A stretch of 64,000 nucleotides of DNA from Anaerolineae bacterium (lineage in GTDB: Bacteria; Chloroflexota; Anaerolineae; Aggregatilineales; Phototrophicaceae): positions 106,010-170,009 of the forward strand of contig JALHNT010000005.1 of assembly GCA_022843385.1 (NCBI GenBank). The letters are read 5' to 3'. Under the pieces are notes generated by a model. That model saw nothing but the letters and a program-made list of their open reading frames with translations. It ran no database searches and was not told where the DNA came from. This document shows, piece by piece, positions 5,344 to 51,609 of the stretch. Made by a program: the position numbers and the translations under genes. Positions within the stretch are counted from its first letter, which is position 1; every line of letters starts with the position of its first letter.

Positions 5344-6204
5344 TCAGTCATTGCGCCACAGCTCGACATGATCCTCCGCAAATTGCTGGAACCGGATAGG
5401 CTCGCGCCCCAGCAGCAGCGAAGCATCCGGGCTCACCAGTTCGGCTGCACCAAAGCGAGTCATGGTATACAATGCCGTCATCACCAGGGCGAAGCTAAGG
5501 GGTTTTCCCTGTGAAAGCTGTTTCTGCAGAAAACGCGGCACCGATGGATTGGTGTAACGGATCGGGCGCCCCAGCACCGCCGACATAATCAGCGCGACTT
5601 CGTAATAATCGAGCGCCTCTGATCCGGTCAGATTGTAGGCGCAGTTACGATGTTGCCGATCATTCAATGCCCGCGCCCCGATAGCCCCGATATCGCGAGC
5701 ATCGATGAAACTGGTCTTGCTATGACCGGCGGGTACAGCGATTTCGCTTCGCAGCCGAATATCGTCACGATGCGTGGTGCTGAGATTCTGCATGAAAAAA
5801 CCCGCACGCAGGAAGGTGTATTCCAGTCCGGATTGCAGGATATGCTGCTCGATCCGGTAATGCGGCACAACCCGGTTATTCTCGACGCCAACCAAGGAGA
5901 GAAATACGATATGCCCCACTCCGGCAGATTTTGCAGCGTCAATCACCGGCGCGATGTACTGGGCCACATCCGAGATGGCCGGCGGACGGACGAGAAACAG
6001 ACTGGTGATGCCCTGCAGCGCTGGCACATAGGATTCTGGCTTCTGAAAGTCGAAATAGACACATTCAACTTCCGGTTCCACCTGCTGGCGCAGCCGATCC
6101 GGCTGAGTGCTTCCCGCGCGCAAGCGACTACGATCAGGAAAAGTACGAATGACTTCGCGCCCAACGTTGCCACTTGAGCCGGTGATGAAGATGGATGGGG
6201 TCAT
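5344..6204 (-). CDS. NmrA-like NAD(P)-binding oxidoreductase (atypical SDR)
   Basis: The 286-residue protein starts with a Rossmann dinucleotide-binding motif (ITGSSGNVGREV, residues 7-18) and continues with the DAAKSAGVGHIVFLSLVGVENN segment characteristic of NmrA/YtfG-type atypical short-chain dehydrogenases. The classical SDR Tyr-x3-Lys catalytic pair is not obvious, as in other NmrA proteins. These use NAD(P)H either for quinone or isoflavone-type reduction or only as a redox sensor, so the substrate cannot be named. It is monocistronic as far as can be seen, ending 12 bp from the IS target duplication. Confidence 0.85.
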   Translation of the reverse strand: MTPSIFITGSSGNVGREVIRTFPDRSRLRAGSTQPDRLRQQVEPEVECVYFDFQKPESYVPALQGITSLFLVRPPAISDVAQYIAPVIDAAKSAGVGHIVFLSLVGVENNRVVPHYRIEQHILQSGLEYTFLRAGFFMQNLSTTHRDDIRLRSEIAVPAGHSKTSFIDARDIGAIGARALNDRQHRNCAYNLTGSEALDYYEVALIMSAVLGRPIRYTNPSVPRFLQKQLSQGKPLSFALVMTALYTMTRFGAAELVSPDASLLLGREPIRFQQFAEDHVELWRND

Positions 6205-6456
6205 ATGGGCACCATGAATACAGCTTGTGATATGCGCTTCACTCTAGCATGAACAGCCCTTACAGCCTCGTAACAAATCACCCCTCTGTGGCTGATGGAT
6301 GTCATTTCTGTCATAACACTGACATTTTATGTTCTCTCAACACTGCACCGGGTTAACCCATTCTTCACAACCGAATCTTTTGTGAAAATTGTGAACCTCA
6401 ACTATCGCCGCAACCACTCTCAAGCTATGCTCGTATATAAGATTAGGAATTCACAT

Positions 6457-6876
6457 ATGGGGGCTGTCATGATGGCGAAAGTTTACTGGAACCATGTGCT
6501 GCTGGTGGATGATAATCAACGACTGCTGCGGAATCTGGCCTTTCTGATGCACGTGGCCGGCTTCAAAGTGACCAGCGCAGCGACAGTTGAGGAAGCGCTC
6601 GATGCGCTGGCGGGGTCAACGCCAGACCTCATCATCGCCGACGCCGATATGCCTGGCGACAATGGTTACGATCTCCTTCAGGCTGTGCGTTCCAACCTTC
6701 GTACCGAAACCACTCCTTTTATCCTGACTTCACCAACTGACGATTTCACCCACATGATGCGGGCGCTGGATATGGGCGCGGATGAATTCCTGCCCAAGCC
6801 CTTCACACTCGATGATGTTCTGGAAGCGGTCAAGCGGGTACAGTTCGCGCCGCACACCGATCTCATTGCCAGCTAG
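6457..6876 (+). CDS. Stand-alone response regulator receiver protein
   Basis: This is a single receiver domain of about 140 residues with no output domain. The acidic pair VDDN near the N-terminus, the phospho-acceptor Asp in IIADADMPGDNGYDLL and the conserved Lys in FLPKPF are all present, so phosphorylation should be possible. ATG at 6457 has an AGGA element about 8 bp upstream; later ATGs at 6469 and 6472 are alternatives, and the longer frame from 6295 is not supported. No kinase gene adjoins it. It probably acts by protein contact, like CheY or Spo0F-type proteins. Its 3' end overlaps the convergent TetR gene by 4 bp. Confidence 0.88.
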   Translation: MGAVMMAKVYWNHVLLVDDNQRLLRNLAFLMHVAGFKVTSAATVEEALDALAGSTPDLIIADADMPGDNGYDLLQAVRSNLRTETTPFILTSPTDDFTHMMRALDMGADEFLPKPFTLDDVLEAVKRVQFAPHTDLIAS

Positions 6877-7451
6877 AAAATATCGTCTGGCGCAGCATGG
6901 TGCAGCAGACGGTAGAAGAGAGTCGCCATCTGCGCCGGGGTATACTGTTCCGGATGTTGTAACCACCAGCGGGTGACGCGCATCAGCGCCCCCGCCATAA
7001 ACTGTGCGCTCACCTCAACCGGAACATCCGGGTAGATATTCCCCTGGCCCAGGCGTTCCAGCGCCCGTTTGGCTGTATACTGTGCCACATATTCGATCAG
7101 ATCAGCGTTGCCATTCCCCGTCATGATGAGCCGCATAATGCCGCCCTGCTGTTGAATGAAGGCGAAGAACCCCATGAATCCCAGCAGGTCGCGCTGCGGC
7201 AGCGACAGCCCATCCAGCACCGGGCCATCGAGCGCCTCAAAAGCCTCAAAGGTTTCGTGAATGATGGTCGCGTAGATTTCCTGTTTATCCCGGAAATGTA
7301 GATAGAAGGTTCCCCGCGCCAGGTCGAGCCGGTCGGTGATATTCTGCACATGCACCGCGTCATAACCGCGCTCGATGAGGAGTTCAAGCGCAGCCTGTTT
7401 GAGCTGCTGGCGCGTCTGTTGGCGACGGCGATCAAAGCGCGTTTCCGTCAT
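6873..7451 (-). CDS. TetR/AcrR family transcriptional regulator
   Basis: The N-terminal helix-turn-helix (about residues 20-52, with NITDRLDLARGTFYLHFRDKQEIY) is typical of TetR proteins; the C-terminal ~130 residues form the ligand-binding/dimer region. ATG at 7451 has an AGG element about 10 bp upstream and is preferred over 7469. It diverges from the cytochrome P450 gene with about 95 bp between starts, the usual arrangement for a repressor controlling its neighbour, so regulation of the P450 and itself is likely. Confidence 0.9.
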   Translation of the reverse strand: MTETRFDRRRQQTRQQLKQAALELLIERGYDAVHVQNITDRLDLARGTFYLHFRDKQEIYATIIHETFEAFEALDGPVLDGLSLPQRDLLGFMGFFAFIQQQGGIMRLIMTGNGNADLIEYVAQYTAKRALERLGQGNIYPDVPVEVSAQFMAGALMRVTRWWLQHPEQYTPAQMATLFYRLLHHAAPDDIF

Positions 7452-7495
7452 AAGTGATGACCTATTCAATGTTAGACAGCCGCTAGAGTTGCTGA

Positions 7496-7523
7496 TTGAC
7501 GCGATTGTGGAGGCGGTTATGCT
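7496..7523 (+). promoter_or_regulatory. Predicted sigma-70-type promoter of the cytochrome P450 gene
   Basis: TTGACG (7496-7501) and TATGCT (7518-7523) are separated by 16 bp and lie 23 bp before the P450 start codon, with a GGGAGG ribosome-binding site at 7533-7538. The promoter sits in the TetR/P450 divergent region, where a TetR dimer could block it. Confidence 0.55.
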
Positions 7524-7546
7524 GATTGTAAAGGGAGGACAGCAGC

Positions 7547-8875
7547 ATGAAACGAGTCAATCTGTTCCAGGTACAGCGTGGTCTGGCCGCCAGCGGGCCG
7601 GACATCTTCATCCAGCTTCAGCGGCAGTGGGGCGATCATCTTTATGCCGATGTGCCATTCATTGGTCGAACGCATTACTGTTTTCATCCCGATCATGCCC
7701 ATGCCGCGCTGGTCAGCCAGGCCGAGCAGGTCATCAAACCGGGTTTTGCCCTGCGCGTCCTGAAATCATCATTCGGTGAAGGTCTGTTCACCAGCGGAGG
7801 CGTGCTGTGGAAACGCCAGCGCAAACTGATGCAGCCGGCGTTTCATCACGCCAAGATCAGCCGCTATGCCGAGCGCATCGTCGGCCATACCCAGGCCATG
7901 CTCGACCCGTGGAAGGATGGCGACTCGGTTGAAATCGACGCGGCGATGCACGGGCTGACGCTGACGATTGTGGTCGATGCCCTGTTTTCAACTGATGTGC
8001 GCGGTCAGACCGCCCAGGTGGGCGCGGCGATGAAAGACCTGGGGGCAGCGGTGGCCGCCCAGAGCGAGTCGTTGCTGCTGGCCTTCATGCCGGACTGGGT
8101 GCCGCTGCCAGCGCTGCGACGCAAACGGCGCGGCGTGGCGAGCATCGACTCGATCCTGTATGCCATGATACGGGAGCGTCGCCAACTGGGTGAGGAAGCT
8201 TCGCCCCATGATCTGCTGACGGCGCTGGTCTTCGCCCAGGATGTGGAGACCAGCGAGCAGATGAGCGACCAGCAGGTGCGCGATGAACTGATGACGCTGT
8301 TCATCGCCGGCCATGAGACAACAGCGGTGCTGCTGGGGTGGGCGTGGGCGATGCTGGCGCAGCAGCCGGAGGTTGAGGCGCGGTTACACGCCGAGCTGGA
8401 TCGTGAACTGGTCGATGGTGTGAGCGTGGTTGAAGCGCTGCCCCGCCTGGTCTATACCCAGCACATCATCAAAGAGACGCTGCGGTTGTATCCGCCGGCC
8501 TGGTTTGTGCTGCGACAGGCGACGCAGCCACTCGACCTGAATGGTGCGCCCATCCAGTCAGGCGAGATCGTGTTCATCATGCCCTACGTCCTCCAGCGCG
8601 ATCCTCGCTGGTACGATCAGCCGGATGCCTTCAGGCCGGAGCGCTGGGAGGGCAACGTGGAAAAACAACTGCCAAAGGGTGCCTATATCCCCTTCGGCAG
8701 CGGGCCGCGTGTGTGCATCGGCAACGGCTTCGCCTTGATGGAAGCGCAGTTGATTCTGGCGACGATGGCGCAGCGCTACCGGGTTGAACTATGCAGCCCG
8801 GCACGCATCACGCAGCGCGTCGGGACATTGGCGTTCGCCGCGCCGGTGCAGGTGCGGTTGCACGCCCGCCGTTGA
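7547..8875 (+). CDS. Cytochrome P450 monooxygenase
   Basis: The 442-residue protein has every P450 landmark: the I-helix oxygen-activation motif AGHETT, the K-helix ExxR (KETLRLYPP), the PERF-like FRPERW, and the heme loop FGSGPRVCIG with the axial thiolate at Cys390. The CIG loop and general layout resemble CYP102/CYP4-like bacterial P450s that hydroxylate fatty acids, terpenoids or xenobiotics; the substrate is unknown. No ferredoxin or reductase gene is adjacent, so electrons must come from elsewhere. GGGAGG lies 8 bp upstream of the ATG. The divergent TetR gene is the probable regulator. Confidence 0.96.
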   Translation: MKRVNLFQVQRGLAASGPDIFIQLQRQWGDHLYADVPFIGRTHYCFHPDHAHAALVSQAEQVIKPGFALRVLKSSFGEGLFTSGGVLWKRQRKLMQPAFHHAKISRYAERIVGHTQAMLDPWKDGDSVEIDAAMHGLTLTIVVDALFSTDVRGQTAQVGAAMKDLGAAVAAQSESLLLAFMPDWVPLPALRRKRRGVASIDSILYAMIRERRQLGEEASPHDLLTALVFAQDVETSEQMSDQQVRDELMTLFIAGHETTAVLLGWAWAMLAQQPEVEARLHAELDRELVDGVSVVEALPRLVYTQHIIKETLRLYPPAWFVLRQATQPLDLNGAPIQSGEIVFIMPYVLQRDPRWYDQPDAFRPERWEGNVEKQLPKGAYIPFGSGPRVCIGNGFALMEAQLILATMAQRYRVELCSPARITQRVGTLAFAAPVQVRLHARR

Positions 8876-8977
8876 ACAGCCAAACCCATCTGGATTTGCT
8901 CAACTGGACGTAATGGTTTCTTAAGCGTTCGAGACTACACTCCGTAGCAGACTGTTCCGAGTGAAAGCGACAACCTG

Positions 8978-10639
8978 ATGAAACCCTCTCAACCTTACCC
9001 TTCCCTGCGGATCGGCGCCCTGGTCGGAGCGCTGGTCACAACCGCGCTGATCGCCGTCTTCTTCCTGGCGGCGCAAGTGGCAGGCACGCCATTCGTGCCA
9101 TTCGATGTGTTCGACTGGATGGCGCGGGTGCTGCCCGGTGCCGTCATCACCTTCGGCATCGACATCATTGTTGGACTCATCAGAACCTTCCAACTGGGCG
9201 AGACCTCCGGCACGGCCAAGCTGGCCGAGCAGATCATGGCCGTCGTCGGGTTGGGGCTGACGGGCATCGTCGCCTCAGCCGTGTTGTTTGAGGTGCTGCG
9301 GCGCAAGGTGGTCAATGTTCCGCCGACCTTCGCCGGGTTGATAGCTGGGATCGTGGTTGGGATGCCGGTCACGATCATCAGCATCACTGGCAATCGCTCC
9401 GCCGAAGCCAGCGTCTTCGTCAGCGGGGTGTGGATCATGCTGGCTTTTGTGGCCTGGGGATTGGCGCTGGGCTGGATTTTCCAACGGCTGACCGGCCAAC
9501 TGCAACCCGCTACCGCAACCGACACACTGGCTGCGGTTCAGCCCATCGACCGGCGCAGCTTCCTGGTGCAGCTCGGCGGGGCGACGGCGGCCATCACGGT
9601 AGTCGGTGCTGGCGTCGGCAGTCTGTTGACGCGGCGCACCAGCTCGGCCGCGCCGGTGCTGATGGCTGAAAGCACCCCGATGCCCACCGAGGAACGCATC
9701 GCCTGGTCAGCAAACAACTCGCTGCCGAACGCCGCCGATACGCTGGTGCCGGCACCCGGCACACGCTCGGAATTCACCGCGCTCGATCTGCACTATCGCA
9801 TCGACATCAACCTTCAGCCACCGGTGGTGCGCGAGAACGAGTGGACGCTGAACTTCAGCGGGCTGATCGACGAGCCGCAGCAGATGACCCTGGCGCAGAT
9901 CCGGGCATATGAACCGATACACCAATTCGTGACGCTGGCCTGCATCTCCAACAGCATCGGCGGTGACCTGATCGGCACCCAGCGCTGGACCGGTGTGAGC
10001 CTGAAGACGCTGCTGGCGGATGTGCCTTACCAGCCCAACACAACCTATCTCAAGATCAGTTCAGCCGATAGTTTTGATGAATATGTCTCGCTCGATCTGA
10101 TTATGCAGGACGAGCGGGTGATGCTGGCCTATGAATGGGATGGCCTGCCGCTGACCGAAGAGCATGGCTTCCCGCTGCGGATTTACATCCCCGATCATTA
10201 CGGCATGAAGCAGCCCAAGTGGATCACCGATATCGAGTTTGTGGCGGCCTGGAGCGAAGGCTACTGGGTGCGGCGCGGCTGGGATCGTGATGCGCTGATG
10301 CGGGCGACCTCGGTGATCGATACGGTCGCGGTGGATGATCTGGTGCGGGTCAACGCCAGCCAGTTTGTCCCGATCGGTGGCATCGCCCACGCCGGGGATC
10401 GCGGCATCTCGAAAGTTGAAGTGCGGGTGGATGATGGGGAATGGACGGAGGCGCAACTGCGTCAGCCGATCTCCAGCACCACCTGGGTCATCTGGCGCTA
10501 TGACTGGCCGTTCGAAGCGGGCGATCATACCTTTGCTGTGCGCTGCGTCGAAGGCAATGGCATACCCCAGATCGAGGAGGTCGCGGGTGTGCGTCCCAGC
10601 GGCGCAACCGGCATCGACAGCGTGCGCGAGTCGATCTGA
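8978..10639 (+). CDS. Membrane-anchored sulfite-oxidase-fold molybdopterin protein
   Basis: This 553-residue protein has about four TM helices (residues 10-170), then an internal twin-arginine-like segment (DRRSFLVQLGG, about 191-201, followed by a hydrophobic stretch), then a sulfite-oxidase/nitrate-reductase-type molybdopterin domain. The molybdenum-coordinating Cys is probably Cys322 in TLACISNSIGG. Supporting segments are GTQRWTGVSLK, GFPLRIYIPDHYG and WITDIEF. A C-terminal Mo-co dimerisation (Ig-like) domain follows from about residue 450. It resembles YedY/SorA-type enzymes fused to a membrane domain. The acceptor and substrate are unknown, and no heme subunit adjoins it. Confidence 0.9.
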   Translation: MKPSQPYPSLRIGALVGALVTTALIAVFFLAAQVAGTPFVPFDVFDWMARVLPGAVITFGIDIIVGLIRTFQLGETSGTAKLAEQIMAVVGLGLTGIVASAVLFEVLRRKVVNVPPTFAGLIAGIVVGMPVTIISITGNRSAEASVFVSGVWIMLAFVAWGLALGWIFQRLTGQLQPATATDTLAAVQPIDRRSFLVQLGGATAAITVVGAGVGSLLTRRTSSAAPVLMAESTPMPTEERIAWSANNSLPNAADTLVPAPGTRSEFTALDLHYRIDINLQPPVVRENEWTLNFSGLIDEPQQMTLAQIRAYEPIHQFVTLACISNSIGGDLIGTQRWTGVSLKTLLADVPYQPNTTYLKISSADSFDEYVSLDLIMQDERVMLAYEWDGLPLTEEHGFPLRIYIPDHYGMKQPKWITDIEFVAAWSEGYWVRRGWDRDALMRATSVIDTVAVDDLVRVNASQFVPIGGIAHAGDRGISKVEVRVDDGEWTEAQLRQPISSTTWVIWRYDWPFEAGDHTFAVRCVEGNGIPQIEEVAGVRPSGATGIDSVRESI

Positions 10640-28665: not shown

Positions 28666-29622
28666 TCAGGAAGCGGTGAGCGACTGCCAGCGCTCCCGCG
28701 CTTCATCCAGCGGCAGGTCTTCGACCGGCAGCGGTTCGCCCAGGTCATCCAGATTCACGCCCTGCTGCGCCGCCGTCATCACCGCCAATATCCGGTTGAG
28801 GATGCGAGCCTGATCGTCCCGGCTGTAACGCTCCAAGTGCTGCGGCAGCCGGGTGTAATCGGCGCTGCGGCGTCCATATCGCGACTCTTCGAAGGCCTTG
28901 CGATAAGCCGCGCCGAAGTCGAAGCGAATATGATCGTCGCCGTTCAGCGGAATCGTCATGACTGGAATCGGGTCATCAACATCGAACTCAACTGCCTGCA
29001 CCGGCCCGGCGGCAAAGCTGGAGCGCGGGTCAAGGATGAGGATGCGGTAAGGATGCGAACCGGGTTCGTGCCGGGAATAGTCGCTAAAGTAGGCGAAGGT
29101 GGGCGGCTGTTCATGGAGAAAATTGAGTTCGACGAACACTAATCCCTGATCGAGCAGCAGGCGTCGTTTAGCGCGATAGCTCTGGGCATCCTCGCCCCTG
29201 CCTTTGTTGCTGGGCGAGAGCAGTTCGACCCACGCCACCGGCTCGCCTTCATCCCCATCGGCATAGATGGCAATCGCAGCATAAGGATGCTCATCGTCAA
29301 TCTCGTATTCATACAACTGGTCAAGCGTCAAAGCAGAGGGGGTCGGCGCGGCGCGGGTTGAGGAGCGGGAATAAGGGAGCGTATCCTTAATCAGAATGTC
29401 GGAACGTGGTGAGCGCAGCGCTGCATCCAGCCGGCGGATTTGCACCGACTCTTCAATCTCAGCGCTATACCCCAACGGTTCAAGCTGCGCCTGCATCAGC
29501 TTCATGACATCAGTCATATAGACGTTGCGAAAGCGGTGCCAGTGATCGCTGGCCTGCCAATAGCTGTGCAGGTGGGCGTTGATGCCACGATACTGATTCT
29601 TGATCGGGTTGATAGGCTTCAT
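28666..29622 (-). CDS. DUF4058 family protein
   Basis: The 318-residue protein matches DUF4058: an N-terminal block with RGINAHLHSYWQASDHWHRFRN, the central VAWVELLSPSNKGRGEDAQSYRAKRRLLLDQGLVFVELNFL segment, and a C-terminal VPVMTIPLNGDD-like region. The family is abundant in Cyanobacteria and Chloroflexota and has a nuclease-like Glu-x-Leu-x-Pro-x-Asn-Lys motif (here VELLSPSNK), comparable with Uma2/restriction-like folds, but its function is unknown. It is convergent with the dehydratase gene (3 bp between stops). Confidence 0.9.
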   Translation of the reverse strand: MKPINPIKNQYRGINAHLHSYWQASDHWHRFRNVYMTDVMKLMQAQLEPLGYSAEIEESVQIRRLDAALRSPRSDILIKDTLPYSRSSTRAAPTPSALTLDQLYEYEIDDEHPYAAIAIYADGDEGEPVAWVELLSPSNKGRGEDAQSYRAKRRLLLDQGLVFVELNFLHEQPPTFAYFSDYSRHEPGSHPYRILILDPRSSFAAGPVQAVEFDVDDPIPVMTIPLNGDDHIRFDFGAAYRKAFEESRYGRRSADYTRLPQHLERYSRDDQARILNRILAVMTAAQQGVNLDDLGEPLPVEDLPLDEARERWQSLTAS

Positions 29623-29675
29623 GACCGGGCGCTGCCTCGTTGACCTGAACCGATTCTAGCACAAATGCCGGCGCA

Positions 29676-30701
29676 TCAATCCGGCTTCACACAGCCGGTG
29701 AAGGAGAAGCTGTAGAGCGCCAGCCCGCGAGTCTTCAGCCGCAGCGTCAGTTCATGTCCTTCAAAGCCGGGGTTGCGCACCAGGTTATACAGACGCGGAC
29801 GATCCACCAGCACCCGGCCATCAACGGTCACATCGTCACCGCGCACGGCTTCGGTCAGCGGCGCGTCATCCTGCCACACTTCGACTGCCACCGCTTCCGG
29901 GTGCAGCATGCGTTCGACCAGCTCGACATGTGGCGTCAGGACGGCATTGACCTCCACCGCTTCGTAGGGCAGCTTGACCACCGCCTCGGTCTGCCCCTGA
30001 AACATCAGATATTGCTCACCGGCTTGCCAGGCTCCGGCCACGTAGAATGCACCGCGTGGACGCTCTTTTGGCATTGAGTACAGGGTGGGGACGCCGCGCA
30101 GATAGCCTTCGGGGTTGCCCAGCGCCCCTCGATCCAGACCGGCGTAGAGTTCAGTCGTGGGACGATAGCAGACTGCGCCGGGACGGTCTTCGGCGCGGAG
30201 GGGCTGCATCACTGGCGGCAGAGAGGCGTCGGCGTCGATCAGATGAATGACTTCCTGGATAGCGCGTTCGAAGCGCTCATAGCCGCCTTCACCATGTGAG
30301 GAGTAGCGGATGTAGCCATCGGCGTCGATCAGATATTTGGCCGGCCAGTATCGATTGGCGTAGGCCTCCCACATCTGAAACTGGTTATCGAGATAGACCG
30401 GATAGGCGATGCGCTGTTCCAGAACAGCAGCTTCGATCTGTGACTTCTCGCGGCCAAAGGGGAACTCCGGCGTATGGACACCGATGAGGGTCAGCCAACT
30501 GGCATAACGCCGCTGCCACTCGCGCAGATAGGGCAGCGTGCGCAGGCAGTTGACGCAGCTATACTCCCAGATGTCGATCAGCACAGCCCGTCCGCGCAGG
30601 CTGTGGAGCGAAAGGGGATGGGGGGTGTTCAGCCACTCGCCCGGCGCGAATTCCGGGGCACGCAGCATACGGGTTTGTAACAGCGAGTCCTGAAGCGTCA
30701 T
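29676..30701 (-). CDS. Thioredoxin-like (redoxin) protein with a C-terminal beta domain
   Basis: The ATG at 30701 gives 341 residues. A redoxin/thioredoxin fold fills about 20-160, with the CxxC active site in EYSCVNCLRTLPYL (Cys at about residues 49 and 52) and the cis-Pro region RYWPAKYLID. The C-terminal half (from about 190) resembles the C-terminal domain of DipZ-like proteins and ends with a stretch of beta strands. No signal peptide or TM helix is evident. It probably reduces or isomerises disulfides, or is a peroxidase-like partner. The frame upstream to 30800 is non-coding in appearance. Confidence 0.82.
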   Translation of the reverse strand: MTLQDSLLQTRMLRAPEFAPGEWLNTPHPLSLHSLRGRAVLIDIWEYSCVNCLRTLPYLREWQRRYASWLTLIGVHTPEFPFGREKSQIEAAVLEQRIAYPVYLDNQFQMWEAYANRYWPAKYLIDADGYIRYSSHGEGGYERFERAIQEVIHLIDADASLPPVMQPLRAEDRPGAVCYRPTTELYAGLDRGALGNPEGYLRGVPTLYSMPKERPRGAFYVAGAWQAGEQYLMFQGQTEAVVKLPYEAVEVNAVLTPHVELVERMLHPEAVAVEVWQDDAPLTEAVRGDDVTVDGRVLVDRPRLYNLVRNPGFEGHELTLRLKTRGLALYSFSFTGCVKPD

Positions 30702-30768
30702 CCGTCCAATCCTTATTCTGAAGCCTACGCGGCTCGATCCATAACCTGCCCTTATCGCTCCCCGTAGA

Positions 30769-31080
30769 TTAATCCCGAATGATGACAACTTCAACATCAC
30801 TATTGGATAGCAGTTTGGCTTCCATGGGCTGCGCCAGCACAGCTTGGACCGCGTTCCACCAGTTGATGCGATGCTGCGTCTGATTGTGCGCGTCTATGGC
30901 CGCCATGTTTTCGTATTCTTCGTAGAACATAAACCGGTTCGGGTCGGCCAGGTCTTGATAGCATGAATAAAAGAGGCAGCCGGGTTCGGCGTTGGTTTGG
31001 GCAATCAACGGCGTTGAGATATCGATGAACTGCTGGCGTTTATCCGGCTGCACTTGCACGAGCACACGTACAACAATCAT
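30769..31080 (-). CDS. Antibiotic-biosynthesis-monooxygenase-like (ABM) domain protein
   Basis: The ATG at 31080 (AAGGA 9 bp upstream) gives a 103-residue single ABM domain, dimeric alpha+beta barrel type: MIVVRVLVQVQPDKRQQFIDIS at the start and the signature EPGCLFYSCYQDLADPNRFMFYEEYEN near the middle. Members include YgiN quinol monooxygenases and LsrG-like proteins. It is likely a cofactor-free oxygenase or a scavenging protein. The gene stops before the thioredoxin-like gene start and may share its transcript. Confidence 0.88.
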   Translation of the reverse strand: MIVVRVLVQVQPDKRQQFIDISTPLIAQTNAEPGCLFYSCYQDLADPNRFMFYEEYENMAAIDAHNQTQHRINWWNAVQAVLAQPMEAKLLSNSDVEVVIIRD

Positions 31081-31318
31081 GGGTCTTTGTCCTTGATGGG
31101 TAGGCGAGGGAACGAAGATCGGGATTATAACAGCGGTTGGGGAGTACCCGAAATCGAGCATTGGCTGATCGAGAGGGAGCATAGCAACACCACGATCCGA
31201 CCAGTCTGGCATAGGCGACTAGGGAATTGAGTTTCTGAAAATGAACGGGTGGGATGATCTGAAACACGCCCTTCCACTCCGAAGCCCTGATCAACCCAGG
31301 TGGGGCTTTATGTTTAGC

Positions 31319-32224
31319 TCAACCGTTGGCTGTTTGGGTGTCATCCGGGCTCCAGAAATCAGGGTGATTGGGGTCTGTGAATCGAGTCATATCGGTATCT
31401 GGTGTCCAGAATTTGCCATCGGGCAGTTTTGTTCTTATGATCAATTTCATGTCGGTCAGCTTTGCGTAGCTCAAATCAGCATAGCTCAAATCAGCATAGC
31501 TCAAATCCGCGTAGCTCAAGTCCGTGCCACGCAATTTCGCTGAAGTCAAGTTCGCTAAGGTCAAGTTTGCGCCGCTCAAGTTCGTGCCTGTTAGGTTTGC
31601 GTTGCCCAATTTAGTATTGTCCAAATTCGCGCTTAGCAAATTCGCGCCCAGCAGGTTGGCATGGCTCAAATTCGCGCCCAGCAGGTTCGCATCGCTCAAG
31701 TTCGTGTTATCCAATTTTGCGCCCAGCAAATTCGCGCCTAGCAGGTTCGCGTGGCTCAAGTTCGCCTGACTCAAATTCGCGTCGCTCAGGTTCGCATAGC
31801 TCAGGTTCGCATAGCTCAAGTTCACCCTACTCAAGTTCGCGCCCTTCAGCAATCCGTCATCACCCTCTAGCCAGTCTCTATTTTTGATCTGATGTATCGC
31901 ATCTCTAGCGACCTCATTTGAGGTGCTACCCGCATCCCGAACAAGCTGTTCTTTCAACTGGCGCAGGTCGCGCTGTGCGTCACGGTGACGGATTATCCGC
32001 TCAATAAACAGCACAGTCACAAAGACGCTCAGCGCCTCGCTAAACACATTGGCAAAATAACCAGAATCATTCTCAACCAGCAAGCCACCTTTGCCAAACA
32101 GGGCATAACCAACCAGAATACCGATTACAGTACATACAAGAGCCACTGCCACGAAGTAAGTCAGTGGGTATTGTTTCAGAATTTCCTGTCGTTCTTGCTC
32201 GCGGTTTTTGATTTCAACACTCAT
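31319..32224 (-). CDS. Membrane-anchored pentapeptide-repeat protein
   Basis: The 301-residue protein has two TM helices (about 22-45 and 58-75), a charged linker, then roughly 25 pentapeptide repeats (consensus ANLSx/ANLLG, about 125-255) that form a right-handed quadrilateral beta-helix. The C-terminal ~45 residues are not repeated (IIRTKLPDGKFWTPDTDM). Pentapeptide-repeat proteins can mimic DNA or bind proteins; the TM anchor implies a cytoplasmic-side membrane role. The repeated codon pattern makes the gene partly repetitive at DNA level, which invites copy-number change. It lies immediately downstream of the RNase P RNA terminator. Confidence 0.92.
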   Translation of the reverse strand: MSVEIKNREQERQEILKQYPLTYFVAVALVCTVIGILVGYALFGKGGLLVENDSGYFANVFSEALSVFVTVLFIERIIRHRDAQRDLRQLKEQLVRDAGSTSNEVARDAIHQIKNRDWLEGDDGLLKGANLSRVNLSYANLSYANLSDANLSQANLSHANLLGANLLGAKLDNTNLSDANLLGANLSHANLLGANLLSANLDNTKLGNANLTGTNLSGANLTLANLTSAKLRGTDLSYADLSYADLSYADLSYAKLTDMKLIIRTKLPDGKFWTPDTDMTRFTDPNHPDFWSPDDTQTANG

Positions 32225-32311: not shown

Positions 32312-32670
32312 GTGTTCAGGTCGGTCTGTAAGCCGCTTTCTGTACCCCGATTGGGGTGGTGGTCATCTATCTGTCCTACCCGTTACCCGGTAGGATCAAG
32401 CAGCCAACCCGGCGCTTTTTGCGGGACGGGTCGCCCCAATGCGCCTGCTCGGCCTTGCTCCCGGTGGGGTTTACCTGGCCGCGTCCATCACTGGCCGCGC
32501 CGGTGGTCTCTTACACCGCCGTTTCACCCTCGCCCGTTGCCGGGCAATACACCTCTCTGTTGCACTTGCCATCGGGTTTCCCCGCCTGGCCGTTAGCCAG
32601 CACCGTACCCTGTGGAGAGCGGACTTTCCTCCCTCCCGAAGGAGAGCAACCACCCGACCAGCCTGAACAC
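32312..32670 (-). ncRNA. rnpB: RNase P RNA (bacterial type A), catalytic subunit
   Basis: The minus strand shows the universal RNase P RNA blocks: AGGAAAGTCC near the 5' end (32621-32630) and the complementary P4 partner ACAGAAA...GGCTTAC near the 3' end (32329-32343). The terminal helix P1 pairs 5' GTGTTCAGG... with 3' ...CCTGAACAC, defining ends at 32670 and 32312 (359 nt). A TATAAT -10 box 7 bp upstream and a strong terminator downstream fix the transcript. It processes pre-tRNA 5' ends. The antisense frames here are not genes. Confidence 0.97.
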
Positions 32671-47811: not shown

Positions 47812-49221
47812 GTGAATCCGCAAGAGGCGTGGAACATTGCCTACAATCAGCTCGAGCTTCAGTTAGACCGGGCCACCTTCGAGACCTGGCTGCGCGGCGC
47901 GGCGTTCGTCAACCATATGCCCGCCGAAGACGGCAGCGATGGCGGGACTTTCGTCATCGGCGTCGCCAACAGCTATGCCCGCGATATGCTGCAACACCGT
48001 CTGTACCGCGAAATCCGCCGCGTGCTGGGGGATGTGACCGGGCAGCCAGTGGAACTGAGCTTTGAAGTAGCGCGCCCGGCAGTGACATCCGTCGAAGCGG
48101 ATGAACTGCCTCTGTTCCGCCTGCTTAACAGCCAGCGCCCGGAACGGGATAGCCTGCCGGCGCTGCACCAGCAGGTCAGCCGCCCGCAGCGCCCAGAGCT
48201 GCCGGAAAGCGAGCTGAACCCACGTTTCACCTTCGAGCGCTTCCTGGCGAACTCGCATAATCGCCTGACCTACGAAGCCGCTATGGCGGTCGCGGAGTAT
48301 CCTGCCAGCCAGTACAACCCCTTTTTGGTTTATGGTGGCGTCGGTCTGGGCAAAACCCACCTGCTGCAATCCATCGCCCATGTCTGCAAGGCGCGCGGGC
48401 AGCGTGTCATCTACATCCCGTCCGAGGTCTTCACCAACGACCTGATCGACGCCATTCGCCAGCGGACGACGGCTATGTTCCGTGAACGCTATCGCTCGGC
48501 GGATGTGCTGCTGGTCGATGACATCCAGTTCATCGCCGGCAAGGAAAGTACGCAGGAAGAATTTTTTCATACCTTCAATGCGCTTTATACCTATAACAAA
48601 CAGATCGTCCTGGCCTCTGACCGGCATCCTTCGGAACTGACGCTGCTGGAAGACCGGCTGCGCTCACGCTTCAGCGGTGGGCTGGTGATGGACTTGCAGC
48701 CGCCCGAGTTCGAGACGCGCCTGGCGATCCTTCAGATGTGGGCGCAGGAACGCAGCATTCAGCTCCCGTCCAACGCCGCCGAGATGATCGCCGAGCAAGC
48801 CCGCACCAATATCCGCGAGCTGGAAGGTATCTTCAATCAGGTGGTCGCCACTATGCAGTTCGCCCGCCGCCCGGTGACGCGCGACATGGCCGAGAGTGCG
48901 GTGCTGACTTATCGCAAGCCGCGCCACCACAGCCTGACGCTGCACCGGCTGCTGGAGGTGGTCGCCCATTATTACAAGTTCGCCACCAGCGATCTGACCG
49001 GCCCGCGCCGCACTGCCCGCCTCAATCAGGCGCGGCAAGTGGCGATGTATCTGGCGCGCGAGATCACGCTGGCCTCGCTGCCACAGATCGGTGATGCGTT
49101 TGGTGGGCGCTCGCACAGCACCGTGCTGCACTCCTGCAATAAAGTGGAAGAAGAACTGAGTGTCGATGCCCTGCTGCGCCAGGATGTCGAAGCGCTGCAC
49201 AAGCTCCTGCTGGGGGAGTAG
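47812..49221 (+). CDS. dnaA: Chromosomal replication initiator protein DnaA
   Basis: The protein has domain I (MNPQEAWNIAYNQLELQLDRATFETWLRG), a linker, an AAA+ core with Walker A (YGGVGLGKTHLLQ), Walker B (LLVDDIQF) and sensor regions, and the C-terminal DnaA-box-binding domain with HTH signature (GGRSHSTVLHSCNKV). It opens the origin and loads helicase. A GTG at 47812 is preferred because AAAGG lies 8 bp upstream; GTG at 47806 is too close. The last 31 coding bases are duplicated at 50581-50611 beyond a 1.4-kb inserted segment. Confidence 0.97.
   Translation: MNPQEAWNIAYNQLELQLDRATFETWLRGAAFVNHMPAEDGSDGGTFVIGVANSYARDMLQHRLYREIRRVLGDVTGQPVELSFEVARPAVTSVEADELPLFRLLNSQRPERDSLPALHQQVSRPQRPELPESELNPRFTFERFLANSHNRLTYEAAMAVAEYPASQYNPFLVYGGVGLGKTHLLQSIAHVCKARGQRVIYIPSEVFTNDLIDAIRQRTTAMFRERYRSADVLLVDDIQFIAGKESTQEEFFHTFNALYTYNKQIVLASDRHPSELTLLEDRLRSRFSGGLVMDLQPPEFETRLAILQMWAQERSIQLPSNAAEMIAEQARTNIRELEGIFNQVVATMQFARRPVTRDMAESAVLTYRKPRHHSLTLHRLLEVVAHYYKFATSDLTGPRRTARLNQARQVAMYLAREITLASLPQIGDAFGGRSHSTVLHSCNKVEEELSVDALLRQDVEALHKLLLGE
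49189..49219 (+). repeat. dnaA 3'-end repeat, copy 1 (within the gene)
   Basis: Thirty-one bases spanning the last dnaA codons and the first base of the stop match 50581-50611 at 28 positions. This is the left junction of the inserted segment. Confidence 0.9.
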
Positions 49222-49222
49222 G

Positions 49223-49438
49223 TCTGCAACTATTGTTCGTATTTCCCTTGAAGATAGGGACTGGAACCAGGTGTCTGCCGCACCTTTGTTAACCATTTCT
49301 GATAAACTCGCTGAGCTGAAAGTGAGTGATATATGGGTTAGCCCATCTCCAAACAAGATAAGTCACCTTATCAATACAGGTTGGCAGCAAATCAAGGGTG
49401 ACAGACTACAAAAGCTGAGAATTAAATCGTCTCAATGA
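49223..49438 (+). pseudogene. Tail of a protein-coding gene cut off at the dnaA junction
   Basis: Immediately after the dnaA stop, in another frame, about 71 codons read as a natural-looking protein tail (ISLEDRDWNQVSAAPLLTISDKLAELKVS...LQKLRIKSSQ) without its own start codon or ribosome site. It ends 7 bp into the convergent HEAT gene. It is most simply the 3' end of a foreign gene carried in with the inserted segment. Family not recognised. Confidence 0.45.
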
Positions 49439-50562
49439 GAGGGATGATTCGGATGATAACCATGTTGTTCCCATACCCGAATGACTGTGCCTTGAACACT
49501 CGTATCAATATCAAACAGGAAATCCACCAGTTGTGGAAGCATGGTTGATCCAAGCAGATTGACGAGAGCTTTGATGGCTTCCCCTCTAACCATCTCATCT
49601 GGATCAGATAAAGCCGTGTAAAGCGGTTGAAGAGATTGCTCATCTTTCAAGCTTCCAAGAGCTTCAATTGCGTAGCATTTTGGCCCGCGTCTTTCATCGG
49701 TTTGCAGCACATCAATCAGAGCCGGTACCGCGCGAATATCTCCGATCCGCTTGAGAGCCCATGCAGCCTGACGGCAAACAAGCGAGTCTTCGTCCTTAAG
49801 ACTATTGATAAGAATATTCAGTCCTTCATTTTGATACTCTTCCGTATAGTAGAGTCCTTCCGCCGCCCACTGGATTACCTCGACATCAGGATCAGCAAGG
49901 ACCGCTGCCAAGGCGGATTGTGCTGCCTGAGTGCGATGTTTTGATAATCCCTTTGCTGCCTCAGCGCGAACACCACTATCGACATCCTGCAATGCGCTGA
50001 TCAGAATGTTTATCAGGGACTTCTCATCCACAGTTTGCGAGATAATCCCGAGTGCATAAATCGCCCGTTTGCGAACGATTGGATCAGGATCCTGGCTTGC
50101 TGTGATCAGTCGGTCGATATACTTCTCCTGATAATCAGCAATCAGTTGAGCAGTTCCCCGTCCAAACCAGTGGCTCGGACCCCTCAACTCTTCAAACACA
50201 GCGTCCACCGCATTCTTCGTCCCAATCTTCAGTAAAGCAAAAAGGGCATCCCCCCGAGCATGTCCCGTCCACTTTGGAAGGAAGTCAATCAGCACATCAG
50301 CGCACTGTTCGTCACCAATATCCCCCAATACAGCAATCACATCGTATAAGTTGACGTGTTCCCATGCCAACGTATTCACTGCTTCGCAAAGCAGACTCAG
50401 CCCTTCGGTCTTGCCGGCCTGCGCCAGCTTAAGGGCATGCCGATAGCGAACCGACAAATCATCGGATTCAGAAGGTTGAATATCGACTATGTTGCTGTGC
50501 TTGTCCATCGAGGCATGCTCCTCATACGGCACACTTATTCTCACAAGAAGCTGATCTTCCAT
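49432..50562 (-). CDS. HEAT-repeat protein (PBS lyase-type repeats)
   Basis: From the ATG at 50562 the protein has 376 residues, nearly all consecutive HEAT/PBS-lyase-like repeats of ~31 residues (DPDPIVRKRAIYALGIIS, DVDSGVRAEAAKGLSKHR, DPDVEVIQWAAEGLYYT, DEDSLVCRQAAWALKRIGD, DERRGPKCYAIEALGSLKD, DPDEMVRGEAIKALVNLLG). Such scaffolds bind proteins or serve phycobilin lyases; the function here is unknown. There is no Shine-Dalgarno sequence and only 18 bp separate the start from the second dnaA repeat, so the 5' end or promoter may be truncated. Codon usage and GC differ from neighbours. Confidence 0.88.
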   Translation of the reverse strand: MEDQLLVRISVPYEEHASMDKHSNIVDIQPSESDDLSVRYRHALKLAQAGKTEGLSLLCEAVNTLAWEHVNLYDVIAVLGDIGDEQCADVLIDFLPKWTGHARGDALFALLKIGTKNAVDAVFEELRGPSHWFGRGTAQLIADYQEKYIDRLITASQDPDPIVRKRAIYALGIISQTVDEKSLINILISALQDVDSGVRAEAAKGLSKHRTQAAQSALAAVLADPDVEVIQWAAEGLYYTEEYQNEGLNILINSLKDEDSLVCRQAAWALKRIGDIRAVPALIDVLQTDERRGPKCYAIEALGSLKDEQSLQPLYTALSDPDEMVRGEAIKALVNLLGSTMLPQLVDFLFDIDTSVQGTVIRVWEQHGYHPNHPSH

Positions 50563-50580
50563 CAAAATGTCAACACGTTT

Positions 50581-50611
50581 GAAACGCTGCACAAGCTCCT
50601 ATTGGGGGAGT
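50581..50611 (+). repeat. dnaA 3'-end repeat, copy 2
   Basis: Matches dnaA 49189-49219 at 28 of 31 positions (differences in the fourth base and in two adjacent bases) and even keeps the encoded ending TLHKLLLGE followed by a stop. It marks the original dnaA end or an att-like right junction. Confidence 0.9.
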
Positions 50612-50626
50612 GAACCAAACGCGCAC

Positions 50627-50944
50627 TCACAGCTTCGGATCGGGGTCTTCGGTATTGGCACCGCCTTCCTGCACCAGCATCCGCATCACCGACGAGGCAT
50701 GGCGGAAGACCATCGCTTCCTGATAGGCCGGGTCGGCATACCAGGCTTCGACATGCGCCTGGCTGGGAAATTCCAGGATGACCAGCCGGTCGGTGTAGGG
50801 TTCGCCTTCGAGCGTAATGACTTTTTCGCCGCGCGTCAGGAAGCGCCCACCATGCTTCTTCACAATCGGCGGCGTCCGATCCGTATATTGGCGATAGGTC
50901 TCCGGGTCATGAATCGCCATCATGGCAAGCACGTAAGCGGGCAT
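50627..50944 (-). CDS. DUF1330 domain protein
   Basis: The 105-residue protein is a single DUF1330 (dimeric alpha+beta barrel) domain: YVLAMMAIHDPETYRQYTDRTPPIVKKHGGRFLTRG and RLVILEFPSQAHVEAWYADPAYQ are diagnostic. The family is small and uncharacterised, related in fold to ABM monooxygenases. AAGGAG lies 8 bp before the ATG. It would follow dnaA directly but for the inserted segment. Confidence 0.93.
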   Translation of the reverse strand: MPAYVLAMMAIHDPETYRQYTDRTPPIVKKHGGRFLTRGEKVITLEGEPYTDRLVILEFPSQAHVEAWYADPAYQEAMVFRHASSVMRMLVQEGGANTEDPDPKL

Positions 50945-51536: not shown

Positions 51537-51609
51537 TGGACCTAGAGAGACTCGAACTCTCGACCTCTTCAATGCCATTGAAGCGCTCTCCCAACTGAGC
51601 TATAGGCCC
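51537..51609 (-). tRNA. tRNA-Ala (anticodon GGC)
   Basis: A complete cloverleaf is seen on the minus strand: acceptor GGGCCTA/TAGGTCC with one G-T pair, D-loop AGCTCAGTTGGGAGAGC, anticodon stem CTTCA/TGAAG around loop ATGGCAT (anticodon GGC) and T-loop GTTCGAGTC. The discriminator is A and the CCA end is not encoded. It reads GCC and GCU alanine codons. Confidence 0.97.

Follow-up and report, generated by a model that had tools for sequence, protein, structure and literature searches.

An intact dnaA gene in the window (the whole 64,000-nucleotide stretch of DNA that was analysed) is followed by a GC-poor inserted segment and then by a stray copy of the last 31 bases of dnaA, and this arrangement most probably reflects one of several imprecise insertions, anchored by homology, in this genome. 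As to the event at dnaA, we lean slightly toward an insertion of DNA from a relative that was anchored by homology on one side only. Elsewhere in this genome, the same layout recurs at other genes, each time with unrelated repeats, and a related genome shows a native-like neighbour behind the stray copy. The preliminary description had read the repeat as the mark of site-specific integration into the dnaA 3' end, and had offered a captured cassette or a duplication-based event as the alternative. Insertion of foreign DNA beside a complete dnaA with a duplicated end is well supported, whereas integration by site-specific recombination is not; the alternative comes nearer the mark.

The repeated end of dnaA and the segment it encloses

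The two copies of the repeat (Table 1) are identical at 28 of 31 positions, with a start-to-start distance of 1392 and a longest common exact run of 16 bases. Both translate to the same ending, LHKLLLGE followed by a stop, though copy 1 stops with TAG and copy 2 with TGA. The coordinates, the number of identities, and the shared HKLLLGE-stop reading given in the preliminary description were thereby confirmed, as were the 18 bp that separate the ATG of the HEAT-repeat gene from copy 2 and, from Pfam, the identities of both genes, with NCBIfam additionally recognizing DnaA. Within the genome (7.85 Mb), copies 1 and 2 are the sole sites of the 31-base repeat at up to 3 mismatches, and a pattern of 22 specified bases, with 3 mismatches allowed, occurred in none of 100 dinucleotide shuffles of the window. 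Past the 31 bp, no similarity significantly above chance was detected on either flank; an in-frame extension of the repeat (CAGGATGTC / CAAAATGTC, with a 9-bp gap) was tempting and was rejected as not significant. At the three differing positions, a G or C in copy 1 corresponds to an A or T in copy 2, two of the differences being synonymous and one non-synonymous (Ala/Thr). The CTG/CTA site reads CTG in 11 of 16 relatives, and the third site is ambiguous.

Table 1. Features of the dnaA locus (window positions) and of the loci compared with it
Feature	Location	Strand	Remarks
dnaA, intact, 471 aa	47806..49221	+	Pfam Bac_DnaA and Bac_DnaA_C; NCBIfam TIGR00362 above cut-off
Repeat copy 1, dnaA end, 31 bases	49189..49219	+	ends in first base of dnaA stop codon
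Inserted segment, 1361 bp	49220..50580		GC 0.48; between repeat copies
Orphan open reading frame	49223..49438	+	truncation unproven
HEAT-repeat protein gene, 376 aa	49432..50562	-	Pfam HEAT_2; start ATG at 50562
Repeat copy 2, stray dnaA end	50581..50611	+	three differences from copy 1
DUF1330 gene past copy 2	50627..50944	-	Pfam PF07045
MFS gene end	G000:C1:57898-60782 (L147:898-3782)		last 155 bp recur 147/155; repeat ends exactly at stop codon
WD40 gene, near 5' end	G000:C3:24867-26610 (L181)		repeat 37/38
AtuA-domain (AtuA-ferredoxin-like) gene start and preceding bases	G000:C6:59280-59945 (L211)		repeat 37/41
Weakly classified pair	C1:337467		repeat 37/42; gene context weak
Ribonucleotide reductase gene, 1238 aa	G000:C1:288589-294532 (L168)		sixth, gapped case
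Gene A of G492, 823 aa	L092 (G492:C7:1291000-1304475), 6112-10067		methyltransferase-like (weak Pfam match)

The composition of the enclosed segment sets it apart from its surroundings. GC3 is 0.39 in the orphan frame and 0.47 in the HEAT-repeat gene, compared with 0.68-0.77 in eight nearby genes including dnaA, so that the low GC noted earlier for the HEAT-repeat part applies to both frames. These are the two main frames of the segment, and a search of its open frames with Pfam and NCBIfam found no recombinase, in agreement with the integrase-free segment described before. The orphan frame had been called the tail of an unrelated gene; the open frame stands, and its being a tail is unproven. 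It lacks an in-frame ATG. No match to it was obtained in Pfam, NCBIfam, PADLOC, or PHROGs, or among plasmids and phages. Weak matches to this frame, with E between 5e-4 and 7e-3 per genome, appeared in five other genomes among 400 of the phylum; four of the five belong to one genus, and the two that were inspected were too weak to be accepted as true relatives. At E<=1e-20, the HEAT-repeat protein matched nothing else in its own genome and had a single weak match (34% over part) among 40 relatives, and six peptide patterns applied to genome contigs yielded no confirmed relative. Weak matches to this protein were present in two plasmid records and, for its N-terminal half, in 5 other genomes among 400. 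Its scores against PADLOC defence models (HEAT-ARM_XIII, 1.4e-18; OloA, 1.8e-10) probably reflect general HEAT-repeat likeness.

The DUF1330 gene past copy 2 would be the original right-hand neighbour of dnaA. At E<=1e-10, its protein has one match in 40 relatives, with 32% identity and from outside the genus. When 12 window genes were sought in the dnaA regions of 20 relatives, essentially dnaA alone was found, the exception being G001, where SRPBCC and ArsR-like genes lie ~4 kb from dnaA. The lack of a conserved gene order near dnaA in these 20 relatives leaves no readable empty site for the gene, and neither these regions nor the search for the HEAT-repeat protein in 40 relatives provided a donor or an empty site. 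In three relatives (G011, L032; G014, L047; G022, L026), the contig stops within about 250 bp 3' of dnaA, and in G014 the contig that does so is 720 kb long. The window also holds a class A RNase P RNA (32313-32665, minus strand) and a tRNA-Ala (GGC) at 51537-51609, about 0.9 kb past copy 2.

Inserts of the same layout at other genes and in a relative

A gene-blind scan of 1,578,388 bases for unique short direct repeats 0.3-6 kb apart with dissimilar flanks returned 16 pairs: nine with both copies in genes, two with both intergenic, and five that combine a gene end with a stray copy. The repeat sequences of the five gene-end pairs differ, and their lengths range from 31 to 155 bp. The individual cases have GC-poor inserts, namely 1404 bp with one beta-propeller-like gene at the MFS gene, 836 bp with one 156-aa orphan gene at the WD40 gene, and 584 bp at the AtuA-domain gene, where the stop codon of an orphan gene uses the first base of the repeat and all three coding differences are synonymous. 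The ribonucleotide reductase gene is of gapped form, its 3' end and terminator recurring after 2.2 kb of downstream DNA that includes a Uma2 gene and others; the reductase gene also carries an intein with a LAGLIDADG domain. The inserts of all five gene-end pairs are 0.08-0.14 poorer in GC than their flanks, and this drop fully separates them from the remaining 11 (exact P 0.0002; P 0.0007 with the weak case C1:337467 dropped), in a test based on rounded values and on pair classes that were assigned with the GC values in view.

A gene-anchored scan of 1.195 Mb of the same genome gave three rows with an intact 3' end and a stray copy downstream and two with an intact 5' end and a stray copy upstream, one of the latter being an ORF-calling artefact of the dnaA insert, and both opposite-side classes were empty. 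Across the dnaA regions of relatives (909,919 bases), the same scan returned four rows on the expected side and three on the opposite side, which does not show an excess. A looser first scan, limited to repeat ends <=15 bases from a stop codon, produced 10 rows in 460,152 bases of this genome and 17 in 909,929 bases of relatives; several of the seven rows inspected were paralogues. The MFS case likewise yielded neither a donor nor an empty site: its next gene was not found when up to 1.5 kb of flanking sequence was examined at 7 MFS loci from 6 relatives. At about 29200-31700 of G000:C1 (L145:10200-12700), a gene end and its neighbour, regulator-like and RDD-like by eye, form an imperfect tandem duplication with a decayed second tail; this similar-looking case is likely a tandem duplication and was excluded from the count. 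For dnaA, tandem duplication was rejected because the flanking genes are unrelated.

A comparable case in G492, a genome of the same family, came from the looser scan, being absent among the gene-anchored rows, and could be compared with G490 and G491, two relatives that share one genus with G492. The last 82 bases of its gene A recur with 80 identities, ending at the stop codon, and the product of a gene in the insert shares 62% identity with that of the resident neighbour over 357 aa. The 120 bases 3' of gene A in G491 and G490 reached a local score of 43.5 each against the sequence downstream of the G492 stray copy, compared with 28 and 24 against that downstream of the intact copy, a likeness that arises partly from homologous neighbour genes, yet starts in the short spacer (CTTACATGCT). 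Since the sequence behind the stray copy is the closer of the two to the G490/G491 junction, the stray copy is probably the old native end, with the intact copy and its insert as the newcomer, and the neighbour homologue within the insert suggests a donor in which these genes were probably arranged in the same way. The intact copy matches G491 at both differing sites, as would be expected if the donor was very close or if the stray copy had decayed.

The differences between copies were also pooled over five cases (four of this genome and G492, with C1:337467 and the reductase left out). Of 17 coding differences, 12 were synonymous, against 4.6-6.0 expected by random change (P 0.0002-0.003). 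This excess gives the copies partly the look of alleles of two lineages, and suggests that each of them functioned as a gene end for some of its past. For dnaA alone, the only three differences, each to A or T in copy 2, could equally well reflect decay of the stray copy.

Possible origins of the insertion

According to the origin that we favour, a DNA fragment from a related bacterium, carrying the 3' part of the relative's dnaA together with the DNA downstream of it, would have entered the cell and paired by homology with the resident dnaA at one end only. The other end would have joined illegitimately, or the circularised fragment would have entered by one crossover. With the junction placed 31 bp short of the resident gene's 3' end, this would yield an intact dnaA followed by downstream DNA of the donor and then by a 31-bp stub of the old dnaA, attached to its old neighbour. 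We propose that the end of the repeat at the stop codon marks the point past which donor and resident sequences no longer resemble each other, and for dnaA itself we infer both the related donor and the recombination route. The recurrence of the layout without a common sequence, the GC-poor inserts, the stray copies on the outer side, the synonymous excess, and the G492 junction with its neighbour homologue all support such a one-sided insertion, as do the partial target duplications in Escherichia coli reported in the cited part of PMC3240628. A partial duplication of the target gene around foreign DNA, the product expected of a single crossover, is what dnaA displays. On the other side, resident DNA was duplicated here, whereas classical homology-facilitated illegitimate recombination (HFIR) usually deletes resident DNA of similar size (PMC3240628, cited part); judged at the dnaA end only, no such deletion is seen, dnaA being complete and its end duplicated. 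A stretch of 31 bp with a 16-bp exact core would also be short for pairing if it acted alone, and not every repeat is bounded by a gene end, that of the reductase gene continuing through the terminator. Neither dnaA nor the MFS gene has a donor or empty site among the relatives searched, and the relatives' scan is without a clear outer-side excess. Finally, the A/T-ward differences at dnaA fit the decay of an initially identical copy equally well, and the identity of the G492 intact copy with G491 at both sites is compatible with decay.

Foremost among the rival origins is a duplicative insertion that needs no homologous donor, which we judge rather unlikely. The dnaA end could have been copied twice, on either side of the captured DNA, when both strands of a staggered break were filled in or when a replication fork switched to a foreign template and returned 31 bp upstream; the second copy would have decayed thereafter. 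The variable length of the unrelated repeats (31-155 bp), the change of all three dnaA differences to A or T in a copy without function, and the location of both G492 changes in the stray copy, as judged by G491, are in accordance with this origin. It leaves unexplained, however, why repeats end near the stop codon at dnaA (-2), the MFS gene (0), and gene A of G492 (0, from the scan limited to ends <=15 bases from the stop), as well as the synonymous excess and the neighbour-gene homologue within the G492 insert.

We consider it improbable that the segment is a decayed integrase-borne element with the dnaA ends as attL and attR, its integrase lost or acting in trans as for elements of the cis-mobilisable type. 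A short direct repeat does restore an intact gene end around foreign DNA, and a genome-wide search confined to tyrosine recombinases (PF00589) gave four genes, all on other contigs. The insert itself, however, has no recombinase that we could find within it or at its edge, and the core is not reused. Beyond copies 1 and 2, the genome holds no further core site; the core had no match in viral contigs and one in genome contigs, in a region that is histidine-kinase-like by eye. Recurrence at dnaA was assessed in relatives of the same order, where 154 genomes were searched, 118 had a match, and 80 regions were fetched, 77 of them scannable with more than 300 bp (0.7-12.9 kb) downstream and 3 too short. 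In none of the 77 was a second dnaA end found downstream. The best score for a second end in these relatives, 15.5, lies within the range of the reverse-complement controls (up to 16.5); the window itself scored 23.5, and shuffled sequence reached maxima of 10.0-14.5. The titles and abstract openings consulted in the literature describe no integration at the dnaA 3' end, which is weak evidence of absence. On the scan of the 77 relatives, recurrent integration at dnaA was rejected, and the unrelated sequences and other lengths of the repeats in like-shaped inserts at other genes leave a single att core without explanatory power. An assembly artefact in which two strain variants were chained, to which the 117 contigs, the estimated contamination of 7%, and the partly strain-allele-like copies might point, is very improbable, because the dnaA ends share no exact run of more than 16 bases, no sequence gap lies at either junction, and the same form is present at several genes and in the separate assembly of G492.

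The case for dnaA as an integration site, which the window had suggested, is thus weakened. A low-GC insert combined with an allele-like gene-end stub also offers a simple signature for the insertion of orphan genes by imperfect recombination, with which such insertions could be counted in uncultured bacteria. By extrapolation, 4 to 5 cases per 1.58 Mb would correspond to some 20-25 in the genome. A broader reading, to which we assign rather little probability, is that this lineage frequently adds single foreign genes at the edges of resident genes without a recombinase, leaving a recognisable stub while the resident gene stays complete, its end being either carried along or copied. If that were true, gene-end stubs would form a fossil record of gene gain.

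Comparison with known systems

Genomic islands or cis-mobilisable elements located at the 3' end of a gene are flanked by a direct repeat that restores the gene end. The dnaA segment shares this end-restoring repeat but differs in lacking a detectable recombinase, a shared core, and recurrence at dnaA.

Another parallel is found in E. coli cells that received DNA homologous at one end. In the experiments described in the cited part of PMC3240628, 56 of 60 selected clones gave a PCR product for partial duplication of the target gene, with duplications of 109-950 bp in 14 sequenced clones, and these were attributed to a single crossover of a circular molecule that lacked part of the homologous end. 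Foreign DNA beside a partial duplication of the target-gene end is common to that system and ours, whereas the E. coli duplications followed conjugation and laboratory selection, and ours, which measure 31 bp at dnaA and range from 31 to 155 bp in the five cases, are deduced from sequence. The usual result of recombination with DNA homologous at one end, according to the same portion of PMC3240628, is insertion with deletion. HFIR, reported from Streptococcus pneumoniae, Acinetobacter baylyi, and Pseudomonas stutzeri as cited there, resembles the dnaA case in having one homologous and one illegitimate end and inserts of about 1 kb, but its usual product carries a deletion at the target, where dnaA shows a short duplication.

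Recombination of the one-end-homologous kind has also been proposed for displaced immunity genes, in the part of PMC5361080 cited here. In that displacement, described for T6SS loci and hypothesised for Rhs loci, new downstream DNA likewise appears at a homologous anchor, and the old downstream gene is pushed outward but retained. Those are effector-immunity loci, whereas the genes involved here are various others with orphan cargo. Among small variable segments between strains, 10-18% are flanked by repeats, most of them <30 bp (PMC2884548, cited part). Repeat-flanked variable segments and one-end homology together form a picture into which the dnaA segment fits.
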